Of a stretch of 64,000 nucleotides of DNA, positions 1,251-10,793 are shown one piece after another (positions within the stretch are counted from its first letter, which is position 1; each line of letters starts with the position of its first letter). The DNA comes from Brachybacterium aquaticum (GTDB lineage Bacteria; Actinomycetota; Actinomycetes; Actinomycetales; Dermabacteraceae): assembly GCF_014204755.1 (NCBI RefSeq), contig NZ_JACHLZ010000001.1, positions 992,001 through 1,056,000 on the forward strand, in the 5' to 3' direction. The position numbers were made by a program, and so were the translations under genes. The notes beneath the pieces are model-generated. The model did no database searches. It saw nothing but the letters and a program-made list of their open reading frames with translations, and was not told where the DNA came from.

Positions 1251-3188
1251 TCAGAGGTCACTGTCCAGCAGGCCGTCGCGCAGCGCGGCGGACAGCGCCG
1301 GCGTCACGGGCAGGCGCGGGATCAACGTCGCCTGCACGGCGTGGTAGATGTCCGGCTTGCCCGGCCAGGTCTCGCCCTGGGGCTCGTTGTCCGCGTCGAG
1401 CTCGTGGAACCACGAGCCGTCCTCAGCATCCAGCAGGTAGGTGGAGATGTACTCCCACCACTGCTCGTACCGCTCGGCCCAGATCCGCTCCCCGGTCACC
1501 TGGTGCATGACGGCGGCGGCGCCCACGGCCTCGGCCGCGACCCAGTGCATCCGCTCGGCGGAGACGGGGGTGCCGTCCCAGTCCACGGTGTACACCCAGC
1601 CCGGCGCCCCGTCGGCCCCGAAGGCCGCGGCGGACTTCTCCATGAGCGCGGTCGCGGCCTCGAGCATCCACTCTGGCGCCTCGCCGTCCCGGGCGATCAG
1701 CGCGGCGCGGGCCTGGAGCACCAGGCGCGACCACTCGATCCAGTGCCCGATCGTCGCGCCGTAGGGGCGGAACGGGTGGGCGGGCTGGTCCTTGTTGTAG
1801 TCCAGCAGCGGCGACCAGTCCGTGTCGAAGTGCTCCGGCAGCGCCCAGTCGTTGGCGCGGGCGAACTCGTCGATCGCGCGGGTGGCGATGGTGACGGCGC
1901 GGTCCAGCCAACGGCGCTCGCCGGTGACGTCGGCCGCGGCGAGCAGCGACTCGACGGTGTGCATGTTCGCGTTGATCCCGCGGTACTCCTCGAGCTCGCT
2001 GAAGGTGCGGTCGTAGGTGTCGACGCTCATCTGCGCGGTCTCGTCGAAGAACTTCTCATCGAGCACCGCGAGCGCCTCGTCCAGCAGCTGCTTCGCGCCG
2101 GGGCGGCCGGCCGCGGTCGCGGAGGATGCGGCCAGGACCACGAAGGCGTGGGCGTAGGCCTGCTTGGAGTCGTCGACCGGGCGGCCGTCCGCGACGGAGG
2201 CGAACCAGCCGCCGTGCTCGTCGTCGTGCAAGACGCCGCGCAGCGAGGCGATGCCGTGGTCGGCGAAGCGGCCGAAGTCGGGCCGGCCCAGCAGGTGGCC
2301 GAGCGCGAAGGAATGCGTCATCCGGCAGGTGATCCACAGCTCCGAGGGGCGGGAGAGGTCCGGCGCGCCGGTCTCGTCCAGCCACGCGAAGCCGCCGTCC
2401 TCGCGCACGGACTCCGAGCCGAAGATCAGCAGCTCGTCGGTCTCGCCCTCGAGCCAGGCCCGGTGCGAGGCGCGCTCCAGCCACGGCACGGCCGGGCGCG
2501 GGGCCGACGGGGCCGCCCCCGCGGCGCCGCTGGCACCGGCGGCGTCGAGGTCGGCGGCGTCGGCGCTCTCGCGCAGCTCGTAGCGGCGCGCGGCCTCCTG
2601 GGCCTGGGCGGTGGTGGGCCCGGGCTCGGAGATCATCAGCACCTCGCGGTAGTACTTCAGCTCCTGGATCGACTCGCGGATGTCCGCGAGCGCCCGGTGG
2701 CCGCCGTGCTTGGCGGGGATGTTGTAGTAGACCCGCGGGAACCAGCGCTTGGCCAGCTCCTTCAGGCTCGAGACGTCGATGGTGCGGTAGGACAGCCAGT
2801 TCGCGAACTCGGGCACGTCGCGGTCCAGGAACACGCGGTCGGTGCCCACGCTGTTGCCGGCCAGCGGCGCCTTGCCGGGCTCGGGGCAGTACTCCTTGAC
2901 GTAGGCGAGGCACTGCGCCTCGGCTTCGGCGAGGGTCATGCCGCCGTCGAGCTCCTCGAGCAGGCCGGAGACGGTGTGCATGTTGACCACGAAGGGGTCC
3001 ATGCTCTTGAGCGACTCCGCCGGGGGCTTGATAACGACGTCGACACCGTCCCCGAGGATGTTCAGATCGGCGTCGGTCACGAGCACGGCGATCTCGACGA
3101 GCGCGTCGCGCTGCTTGTCGAGGCCGGTCATCTCGCAGTCGACCCAGATGATGCGATCGTTGATGGCGCGGGTGGAAGCGGAGGTCAC
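1251..3188 (-). CDS. orn: Oligoribonuclease fused to AGE-family sugar isomerase domain
   Basis: One uninterrupted 645-residue frame begins at GTG 3188. Residues 1-184 are a complete oligoribonuclease, the DEDDh 3'-5' exonuclease that degrades two- to five-base RNAs: Asp17 and Glu19 in WVDCEMTGLD, Asp117, His164 and Asp169 in HRALADIRESI. A linker of about 45 Ala/Pro-rich residues follows. Residues 232-645 are a whole N-acylglucosamine 2-epimerase fold of the YihS/mannose isomerase type, with RMTHSFALG, NMHTVESLL, IGHWIEWSRL and KPDIYHAVQ. His482 and His616 sit 134 residues apart, like the catalytic pair of YihS (248 and 383). No ribosome binding site is seen at the domain junction. Both domains look active; the fusion itself is the oddity. 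Confidence 0.9.
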   Translation of the reverse strand: MTSASTRAINDRIIWVDCEMTGLDKQRDALVEIAVLVTDADLNILGDGVDVVIKPPAESLKSMDPFVVNMHTVSGLLEELDGGMTLAEAEAQCLAYVKEYCPEPGKAPLAGNSVGTDRVFLDRDVPEFANWLSYRTIDVSSLKELAKRWFPRVYYNIPAKHGGHRALADIRESIQELKYYREVLMISEPGPTTAQAQEAARRYELRESADAADLDAAGASGAAGAAPSAPRPAVPWLERASHRAWLEGETDELLIFGSESVREDGGFAWLDETGAPDLSRPSELWITCRMTHSFALGHLLGRPDFGRFADHGIASLRGVLHDDEHGGWFASVADGRPVDDSKQAYAHAFVVLAASSATAAGRPGAKQLLDEALAVLDEKFFDETAQMSVDTYDRTFSELEEYRGINANMHTVESLLAAADVTGERRWLDRAVTIATRAIDEFARANDWALPEHFDTDWSPLLDYNKDQPAHPFRPYGATIGHWIEWSRLVLQARAALIARDGEAPEWMLEAATALMEKSAAAFGADGAPGWVYTVDWDGTPVSAERMHWVAAEAVGAAAVMHQVTGERIWAERYEQWWEYISTYLLDAEDGSWFHELDADNEPQGETWPGKPDIYHAVQATLIPRLPVTPALSAALRDGLLDSDL

Positions 3189-3360: not shown

Positions 3361-3888
3361 GTGAACATGTTCTTCCGCCTGGCGCTGTTCATGCTGCGGG
3401 TGCGCTTCAAGAGCCGCCTGAGCATCTGGGACACCTCCCACGCGAGCTTCCGCGTGAACCTCGCCGACCTCGACGTGCAGCGCCACATGAACAACGGCCG
3501 CTACCTGTCCCTGATGGACCTCGGCCGCATGGACCTCTTGCTCCGCTCCGGCTTCTGGAAGCGCGTGACCGAGCAGGGCTGGTACCCCGTCGTCGCCGGA
3601 CAGACCATCACCTACCGCCGCTCCCTCACCCTCGGGCAGAAATTCGACCTCGCTTCCCGCGTGATCGGGCACGACGAGCGCTGGATCTACATGGAGCAGA
3701 TCTTCCGCGTGGACGGGACGGTGTACGCCGACGCGATCGTGCGCGCCCGCTTCCTGCGCACGGAGGGCGGCTCCGTCGACATCGACGACGTGCTCGCGCT
3801 CACCGGCCCCGCCCCCGAGGGGCTGGAGCTGCCGGCCTGGGTGGCCGACTGGAACCGGGAGGCCTCCGCGCACAGCCGCGCACTGTGA
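3361..3888 (+). CDS. Hotdog-fold acyl-CoA thioesterase-like protein
   Basis: A protein of 175 residues starts at GTG 3361, chosen because GGGAGG lies 9 bases upstream; ATG 3367 is possible. The motif DLDVQRHMNNGRYLSLMDLG (Asp38, His42, Asn44) is the hallmark of 4HBT/THEM6-like thioesterases, which hydrolyse acyl-thioesters such as acyl-CoA. The short hydrophobic start (MFFRLALFMLRVRF) may act as a membrane-associated helix. It is transcribed divergently from the Orn-AGE gene. The substrate cannot be told from sequence. Confidence 0.8.
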   Translation: MNMFFRLALFMLRVRFKSRLSIWDTSHASFRVNLADLDVQRHMNNGRYLSLMDLGRMDLLLRSGFWKRVTEQGWYPVVAGQTITYRRSLTLGQKFDLASRVIGHDERWIYMEQIFRVDGTVYADAIVRARFLRTEGGSVDIDDVLALTGPAPEGLELPAWVADWNREASAHSRAL

Positions 3889-3929
3889 GGCACGGGCGGT
3901 GACGGCCGACGGGGCCGACCGGATCGGGC

Positions 3930-4190
3930 TCAGCGCGATGCGGACTCTCGGTGCGCGGCGCGGGCGCGCAGCTCCTCGACGAGGCTGACCACCAGCAGGA
4001 TCACCACGACGGCCAGCAGGATCCACTGCTCGAAGACGACCGCGAGGATCCCGGCGATCACGAGCGCGACGAGGTAGACGATCTCCAGCGCCCGCAGCGG
4101 CACGCCCAGCAGCTTCGCACCGACGCGGGTGCGGGCCAGGCGCAGCAGGATCAGCAGCGCGATTGCGCCGAAGGCCAGGTACCTCAGCAT
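3930..4190 (-). CDS. Small integral membrane protein
   Basis: An 86-residue protein from ATG 4190 has three hydrophobic stretches (residues 3-18, about 35-52 and 55-70) and a charged C-terminus rich in Arg, Glu and Ala. I recognise no family. It faces the thioesterase gene convergently and is divergent from the permease gene. No motif indicates function; it may be a generic actinobacterial membrane protein. Confidence 0.6.
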   Translation of the reverse strand: MLRYLAFGAIALLILLRLARTRVGAKLLGVPLRALEIVYLVALVIAGILAVVFEQWILLAVVVILLVVSLVEELRARAAHRESASR

Positions 4191-4308
4191 CGTGCTCCTC
4201 GGGATGGGGGTGGGTGCAACGGGGGCTGTGACGTCCTCCGCGTCACCCTAGCCGGGCGCGCTGGGCGCCCGGTCGGAGCGCGCCCGCCGTGGTGGCAGGA
4301 TCACGGAC

Positions 4309-5061
4309 ATGACCCCGGAGATGACCCAGATGGTGCTGCGCACCCTGCTCGGCGTGGTGGTGCTTCTGGCCGTGGCGCTGCTGGTCCTGCGTGCGGCCGG
4401 GGTGCCGCACCGGGCGGACACGGCGATCGCCGTGCTGCGCGGCGCCGTGCAGCTGGCAGTCATCAGCGTGGTGCTCACCGGGGTGATCGCCGACCTGCGC
4501 TGGGTGCTCGTCGCGCTCGCGGTGATGTTCACGGTCGCGGTCGTCACCAGCACCCGTCGGGTCTCCTGGACCGTGCAGCGCCTCGGCATCGTCGCCGCCT
4601 CCATGGCGGCGGGCGTCGCCGTCACGCTGAGCACCGTGTTCGCCACCGGCGCGCTCGACCTCACCCCGCGCTACGTCCTCGCCATCGGCGGGATCGTGAT
4701 CGGCGGTGCGATGTCGGTGGCGACCCTCGCCGGCCGACGCCTCGCCCAGGCCACGGCCGACCGCTGGGACGAGGTCGAGGCGTGGCTCGCCCTCGGGGCC
4801 ACGCCCCGGGAGGCGACCGCGGACATCGGCCGCTTCGCGATCCGCGAGGCGCTGATCCCGTCCACCGATCAGACCCGCACCACGGGCCTGGTGACCCTGC
4901 CCGGTGCGTTCGTCGGTGCGATCTTCGGCGGCATCGTCCCGATCGAAGCGGGACGCTTCCAGATCGTCGTGCTCGCCGGGATCATCGCCGCCGGCGCGGT
5001 GACCGCGACGCTGCTCGTGCACGTCCTCGCCCCGCGGATGGAGCGGCTGGGGACGGGATGA
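4309..5061 (+). CDS. FetB/UPF0014-type ABC transporter permease
   Basis: A 250-residue, strongly hydrophobic protein with about seven membrane segments. The conserved block LGATPREATADIGRFAIREALIPSTDQTRTTGLVTLPGAFVGAIFGG (about residues 163-210) is typical of the UPF0014/FetB family. In E. coli FetB pairs with the ATPase FetA and is linked to iron export and peroxide resistance. No ATPase gene is adjacent, so the partner must be encoded elsewhere or the permease acts alone. The gene ends 9 bases before the 3' end of the opposing tRNA-Arg gene. Confidence 0.85.
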   Translation: MTPEMTQMVLRTLLGVVVLLAVALLVLRAAGVPHRADTAIAVLRGAVQLAVISVVLTGVIADLRWVLVALAVMFTVAVVTSTRRVSWTVQRLGIVAASMAAGVAVTLSTVFATGALDLTPRYVLAIGGIVIGGAMSVATLAGRRLAQATADRWDEVEAWLALGATPREATADIGRFAIREALIPSTDQTRTTGLVTLPGAFVGAIFGGIVPIEAGRFQIVVLAGIIAAGAVTATLLVHVLAPRMERLGTG

Positions 5062-5070
5062 GCGGAGGAG

Positions 5071-5143
<73 letters not shown>

Positions 5144-5202
5144 TGACGGCGCACGAGTCTACCGACGCTGCGACGCCGCCACGGCCAGGAACGCAGTCCG
5201 TC

Positions 5203-6113
5203 TCAGCGACGTCGGCCACGCCGCTGGGCCGCCGACGGGGCCGGCGCGCCGGGCCCGGCCTGGCAGCGGGGGCAGAACCACAGCACCCGCGCCTCGGTGC
5301 CCTCGAGCCGCGGTTCGGCGAGCTCGCCGCGCTGGATCCGGGTGCGGCAGCGGCGGCACTGCTTCCCTCCGCGGCCGTAGACCCACAGGTCCCCGTCCCG
5401 GCCGAGCATCCCACCGGTGGTCACCCGCACCTCCCGGTCCCGGTTCAGCACGAGCAGGCGATGGGCGAGGTCGACGAGCGCGCCCGGGTCCTGCTCCGCG
5501 GAGACGGGCGCGGCGGGGTGGAGCCGGCGCAGGAAGCACAGCTCGCTGCGATAGATGTTCCCGATCCCCGCCAGGACGTGCTGGTCCAGCATCGCCAGGC
5601 CGATCGGCCGCTCCGGCTCGGAGGCGAGGTTCGCGAGCGCCCGCTCCCGCAGGGTCGGGTCCTCGTCCCACGCGGGATCGAGCAGGTCCGGGCCGAGGCT
5701 CCCGAGCAGCTGCTCCTCGTCGGCCGTGCGCAGCAGCTTCACCTGCTTCACGTCGTAGGCGATCGCCCGCACCTCACGCCCGTCCCAGTGTCGGGCCTCG
5801 AGCACGATCCGGATCGTGTCGCGGGTGCGCGGCCCGGCGCTGGTGTCGCTGGAGCGCAGCGCCTTCCCCTCCACGTGCCAGATCCCGTCCATCATCAGGT
5901 GGCTGTGCAGCGTCATCGGCGCAGTCCCGGGCGCGGGCGGGACGAGCCGGATCAGCAGGTGCTTGCCGCGCGGGCGCACCTCGTGGACTCTCCAGCCGGT
6001 GAGGTCCGCGGTCGCCGCACGCGGGACCCGGAGGTCGCAGACGGTGAGCACGGCGCCGGCGAGCGCGTCGTGGAGGATCCGGCACTGGCGCGCGACGGTG
6101 TCGCCCTCGGGCA

Positions 6114-6114
<1 letters not shown>
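5203..6114 (-). CDS. nei2: Endonuclease VIII-type DNA glycosylase Nei2
   Basis: A 303-residue Fpg/Nei-family base-excision enzyme that removes oxidised bases and nicks the abasic site. It starts MPEGDTVARQ, with the catalytic Pro2 and Glu3 of the family. It carries the helix-two-turn-helix region ([16 protein letters not shown]) and a C-terminal zinc finger (CRRC and CPRC). A basic Ala/Arg tail follows. Its start overlaps the stop of lhr by one base (TGATG), so the two are co-translated. Lhr-Nei2 pairing is known from other actinobacteria and suggests joint work in DNA repair. Confidence 0.93.

Positions 6115-10793
<4,679 letters not shown>

Follow-up and report, generated by a model that had tools for sequence, protein, structure and literature searches.

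An in-frame fusion of oligoribonuclease with a YihS/mannose-isomerase-type domain, conserved in Brachybacterium

Whether dinucleotide clearance is linked to sugar metabolism when the two enzymes concerned share a single chain, or whether such a fusion is simply tolerated, is the question posed by a gene of Brachybacterium aquaticum that lies in the 64,000-nucleotide stretch of DNA analysed here (the window). On the minus strand, a frame at 1251-3188 opens with a GTG start and runs for 645 codons and a stop, without internal stops. An earlier note, based on the letters of the window, had claimed that this unbroken frame joins an oligoribonuclease (Orn) to a sugar-isomerase domain of the AGE family, and the claim is confirmed by Pfam and NCBIfam matches to both parts.

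1251..3188 (coding codons 1254-3188), minus strand: fused gene, as read from the ORF and as the sole whole-protein match in the complete genome
2574..3188, minus strand: oligoribonuclease domain, residues 1-205, with the DEDDh residues D17/E19/D117/H164/D169 (Pfam, NCBIfam and PDB matches, alignment)
1254..2489, minus strand: AGE-family domain of YihS/mannose-isomerase type, residues 234-645, with R289, H410, H482, E485 and H616 (Pfam, NCBIfam and PDB matches, alignment)

The whole protein matches the single 3,449,336-base contig of this genome once at E 0.001 or better, and the genome holds one AGE gene. Pfam places RNase_T at residues 14-176 (86.6 bits, cut-off 24) and GlcNAc_2-epim (PF07221) at residues 265-620 (379.6 bits, cut-off 23.4), the latter over profile positions 1-347 of 347, while each of the 41 PDB sequences listed as matches corresponds to the Orn half or to the AGE half and none covers both. 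The Brachybacterium protein is a real in-frame fusion of Orn with a YihS/mannose-isomerase-type AGE domain, and constitutes a new combination of two enzyme families already known.

The N-terminal half belongs to the NCBIfam oligoribonuclease equivalog NF003765, which it matches with 248.3 bits (cut-off 106). The five DEDDh residues are kept in 37/37 fused genes, our own included, and in all eight family genes in which the two halves are split; D17, E19, D117, H164 and D169, like the isomerase residues H482 and H616, stand exactly where they had been proposed. By sequence, the best solved-structure matches (E 1.3e-65 and 1.7e-64) are PDB 9f7m and 7wik, in an alignment that spans window residues 9-201. 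With the stand-alone actinobacterial Orn of these entries and of M. smegmatis (MSMEG_4724) the window protein has in common the DEDDh residues, the HRALADI motif and the PGP tail; however, the two solved chains comprise 219 and 210 residues, whereas the Orn tail of the window continues into another enzyme. The work on M. smegmatis Orn (PMC9676404) describes a C-terminal tail helix that stabilises the dimer by contact with the other protomer and may influence substrate selection. It also describes Orn as removing the dinucleotides left at the end of RNA decay and, in a number of bacteria, those from c-di-GMP breakdown. By analogy with that enzyme (PMC9676404), the N-terminal half would work as an ordinary dimeric Orn, hydrolysing dinucleotides and other very short RNAs. 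The same source reports slightly slower growth upon deletion of orn in M. smegmatis, and this mild effect means that essentiality of Orn should not be assumed. A DHHA1 search of the genome revealed no NrnA, since its sole match falls in a frame whose translation looks like alanyl-tRNA synthetase. On the other hand, an RNase D/NrnC-like gene is present and, according to PMC8492067, Actinobacteria often carry Orn and NrnC together, so that the fusion need not be the sole dinuclease. A second, distant Orn-like protein is encoded in two genomes of the family, at L123 (G020:C2:1706500-1708600) and L125 (G044:C13:382000-384000), with 36% and 33% identity, respectively, to the window Orn; the matched span of L123 holds a TGA, and both proteins might belong to the deoxydinuclease-like group of PMC11706625.

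The C-terminal half is identical to E. coli YihS at 192 of 408 aligned positions. Its His410, His482 and His616 correspond to what we take to be His176, His248 and His383 in YihS numbering, in agreement with the earlier suggestion that residues 482 and 616 are placed like the active-site histidines of that enzyme. Among the fused genes covering each position, these histidines are kept in 37/37, 36/36 and 35/35 cases, respectively. Three active-site histidines are the feature by which the YihS subfamily of AGE is recognised (PMC7762179), and the window domain carries them. Full-length matches extend both to E. coli and Salmonella YihS (2rgk, 2afa, 2zbl, 7ag4), with the active-site histidines in common, and to D-mannose isomerases (5x32, P. 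geniculata AGEase); these are separate proteins, whereas the window isomerase is fused to Orn. The difference from YihS lies at Gln362 and Gln379, presumably its sulfonate-binding glutamines, which are replaced by His595 (35/35 fused and 8/8 split genes) and Pro612 (35/35 fused and 7/8 split genes). The window domain thus lacks the glutamines expected of a sulfoquinovose isomerase at YihS positions 362 and 379 and, if their role is as we presume, sulfoquinovose, which had been put forward as a candidate substrate, becomes unlikely. The best-scoring equivalog is that of D-mannose isomerase, NF051846, with 472.4 bits against a cut-off of 600, a cut-off that is also missed by 6/6 relatives tested, three from split family genes and three from other families (379.3-522.9 bits). 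In sequence, the sugar half is closer to D-mannose isomerase than to sulfoquinovose isomerase, and it is probably a D-mannose isomerase interconverting mannose and fructose. A phosphomannose-isomerase-type gene is present elsewhere in the same genome, and one genome of the genus encodes a second AGE-family protein with 45-47% identity (L124, G015:C286:2500-5541).

A stop codon at the linker, or separate genes in close relatives, would speak against a fusion, and neither is seen in the genus. Among its 38 genomes, that of the window included, 37 match the fused protein, and the frame is kept through the junction in every one of them. The junction was read by script in 36 of them, where the stretch from the Orn tail to the start of AGE is free of stops, and the remaining one (G015) shows a stop-free match over residues 2-427. 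The conservation that the earlier note had proposed to look for is therefore found, and with it the proposal of two apparently intact enzymes in one frame, kept across the genus, gains support from the catalytic residues conserved in the fused relatives. The one genome with no match to the fused protein, G026, is 88% complete and in 750 contigs. G027 presents a TGA near residue 540, inside the AGE domain of an otherwise fused gene; this break (L122, G027:C1:2188500-2193500) occurs in an 85%-complete single-contig genome and is possibly a sequencing error. Within the same family, G043 (genus g4) is fused too. A search across the order returned matches in 243/248 genomes and, among the matches listed (down to E about 1e-94), spans over both halves appear only in the family itself. 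Of the 51 AGE loci retrieved (L058-L108), one is from Dermabacter; the flanks retrieved for the other 50, which lie outside the Dermabacteraceae and are in some cases short, contained no Orn.

The remaining eight genomes of the family (four of genus g2, G042, G044, G045 and G046) carry orn and the isomerase as separate but adjacent genes. In Dermabacter, the TAE3-ERU strains and genera g3 and g5 the pair shares order and strand with the fusion but, unlike in the fusion, the isomerase has its own start and a Shine-Dalgarno-like site. Measured by hand, 5/8 split junctions have the isomerase start overlapping the orn stop or at most 4 nt away from it: 4-nt overlaps are seen in L111 (ATGA) and L115 (GTGA), and near-touching arrangements in L113 (TGA followed by TATG) and in L116 and L117 (TAG-CARA-GTG). 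Spacers of 39, 44 and 39 nt separate the genes in L109, L110 and L112. All eight split isomerase starts are preceded by a Shine-Dalgarno-like site (-6.9 to -11.2 kcal/mol of anti-SD pairing), which in L111 is an AGGAGG at a distance from the ATG, about 13 nt, that exceeds the usual one. In the window, the corresponding region contains the following codon.

2487..2489, minus strand: GTG codon 234 (V of VPWL), near the isomerase start of the split relatives; a possible fossil start, without Shine-Dalgarno (junction alignment, anti-SD pairing)

In 34 fused genes, the codon equivalent to the split isomerase start is GTG in 15, GTC in six and another codon in 13, and pairing at the 15 GTGs ranges from -4.2 to +1.9 kcal/mol. 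Strong sites in the split genes together with weak pairing at the fused GTGs are what would be expected if a coupled pair had fused and its start signal had then decayed. We thus consider it likely that the gene is a two-enzyme fusion derived from a coupled orn-isomerase pair that lost the internal stop and start, with both enzymes now in one chain. The ancestral arrangement would have been a translationally coupled pair in which the gene immediately after orn encoded an aldose-ketose isomerase of YihS type (probably a D-mannose isomerase); loss of the orn stop and of the isomerase's own start signal would then have yielded a single chain, in which the Orn tail helix leads through a flexible linker to the isomerase domain. 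As such, the genus-wide fusion offers a clear example from nature of two neighbouring genes becoming one, while the split state persists in sister genera.

The number of such events is less straightforward. On a tree of Orn plus AGE, built with 43 of 45 rows after removal of two with a short AGE, two changes are required to account for the fused state. A single origin with one fused clade is rejected by the AU test (p 0.00125), in a quick tree with long branches for G043, G044 and G040. Two origins are nonetheless not established by this result, because one fusion followed by one later fission in Dermabacter also costs two steps, and the two scenarios fit the tree equally well. In a tree of AGE alone, comprising 26 of the 45 family rows and 15 from outside, the family isomerases form one side of a branch with an SH-aLRT of 96.

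The junction itself comprises the end of the Orn domain and a linker.

2574..2630, minus strand: Orn C-terminal tail, residues 187-205, with a predicted helix at 193-202 (PDB alignment, AlphaFold model, PMC9676404)
2490..2573, minus strand: Ala/Pro/Asp-rich linker, residues 206-233, predicted to be disordered, with pLDDT under 50 for 208-231 (junction alignment, AlphaFold model)

An AlphaFold2 model based on 44 aligned sequences (mean pLDDT 88.1, pTM 0.67) is confident for the Orn and AGE domains and falls under a pLDDT of 50 at residues 1-9 and 208-231. Its helix at 193-202 falls where the tail helix of M. smegmatis Orn sits (PMC9676404). The position of this helix and the disorder of the linker suggest that the isomerase probably hangs by a flexible tether from the Orn dimer. 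From the PGP of the Orn tail to the first Trp of AGE, the 37 fused genes present 13 different lengths (29 to 65 codons), all of them in frame. Across 14 disjoint close pairs (28 of 34 genes), residues differ at 144/390 positions in the linker and last ten Orn residues, against 170/2719 in Orn and 525/5770 in AGE; the protein sequence of the linker is loosely constrained and evolves fast. Third positions account for 141/321 substitutions (44%) in the linker and last ten Orn residues, 505/691 (73%) in Orn and 1198/1816 (66%) in AGE, where an untranslated stretch should show about one third, although base-composition bias could also raise the share. With third-position changes predominating in both halves and the catalytic residues invariant, the notion that either half is a pseudogene finds no support, the broken AGE frame of G027 being the one exception; judging from these sequence patterns, both enzyme activities are probably kept.

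Why the fusion is kept is a different matter from how it arose. The loss of a stop codon might have been harmless and become fixed, with the two enzymes working independently and the tether serving no function, a reading compatible with the two-enzyme fusion from a coupled pair and differing from it only on the reason for its persistence. The fast evolution of the linker and its predicted disorder are in line with such neutrality, and so is the surrounding gene content.

3364-3888, plus strand: 4HBT thioesterase
4309-5061, plus strand: UPF0014 membrane protein
5203-6114, minus strand: Fpg/Nei-type glycosylase
6114-10793, minus strand: Lhr-type helicase

No sugar gene occurs among the six window proteins scanned or among the neighbours listed for 3364-10793, nor among ten frames scanned at one Cellulomonas locus. 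Yet all 37 matching genus genomes have remained in frame despite the 13 junction lengths, the pair stays adjacent in nine family genomes outside the genus, and on the tree the fused state implies two changes; on balance, we regard a neutral fusion as a genuine contender that falls a little short of even chances. Should the two-enzyme fusion carry an advantage, it would presumably be the fixed 1:1 co-production of both enzymes. The earlier suggestion of a joined pair kept for dosage is upheld in part, by the adjacency of the genes in the split relatives and by the overlap or near contact in 5/8 of them. By contrast, its companion idea, that nanoRNA turnover is biochemically coupled to sugar metabolism, goes unsupported, given the lack of sugar genes among the scanned neighbours and of Orn near the 50 outside AGE loci. 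The tie between the halves is more likely to be one of co-production than of shared catalysis.

A further possibility is that the frame yields two products, the full-length fusion and an isomerase initiated within the last codons of Orn.

2634..2636, minus strand: ATG codon 185 after GAGGTG, a candidate internal start inside Orn (anti-SD pairing -9.6 kcal/mol)

The earlier note had found no internal ribosome binding site in the linker. This stands for the linker of the window and its end, where the sole start-type codon, GTG234, pairs weakly (-1.7 kcal/mol), but it does not extend to the end of Orn, where ATG185 follows GAGGTG; within AGE, GTG261 shows a pairing of -6.1 kcal/mol. Start codons inside Orn with pairing of -7 kcal/mol or better occur in 24/37 fused genes, as opposed to 3/8 split genes, and would be suited to a second product, but 13/37 fused genes have no such site, and common codons for the conserved YREVL motif suffice to create it, as they do in split genes too. 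A conserved start within the linker can be discarded, as the aligned codon is GTG in only 15/34 fused genes and pairing there is weak; three fused genes (L009, L025 and L126) have strong sites of their own before a GTG in the linker. Together with the ATG185-type sites, these leave room for an additional isomerase-only product, although we deem two products from initiation at Orn codon 185 unlikely.

Functional coupling, in which the isomerase would sense sugar and modulate Orn, or the reverse, and thereby tie nanoRNA or cyclic-dinucleotide breakdown to carbon supply, appears quite improbable. It draws on the placement of the isomerase after a tail that, in M. smegmatis Orn, lies against the other protomer and could have a bearing on substrate selection (PMC9676404), and on the fused state being found in two places on the tree; the linker, however, is flexible and poorly conserved, no pathway link was found, and Orn is missing from the fetched flanks of the 50 AGE loci outside the family. 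Very doubtful, too, is the bolder proposal that two fusions took place within one family through selected tethering, with isomerases on the dimer-stabilising tails of Orn making up a module that responds to sugar and regulates or scaffolds the clearance of dinucleotides. That an assembly or sequencing artefact removed the stop codon is so improbable as to be negligible, the same in-frame junction being present in 36 other genus genomes (35 by script and one from the span of its match), of which several are assembled as one contig; nothing speaks in its favour.

In the titles and abstract openings retrieved from the literature on Orn, on YihS and mannose isomerase, on Brachybacterium and on gene coupling and overlap we found no description of an Orn-isomerase fusion, most subscription journals lying outside our reach, and the search yielded no paper combining Brachybacterium with oligoribonuclease; the word "fusion" is absent from the main text of PMC9676404. 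An AGE match in another family of the order (L131, G180:C2:475500-481500) lies within a very long frame of 1465 codons, which could have stayed open by chance at high G+C or represent another fusion.
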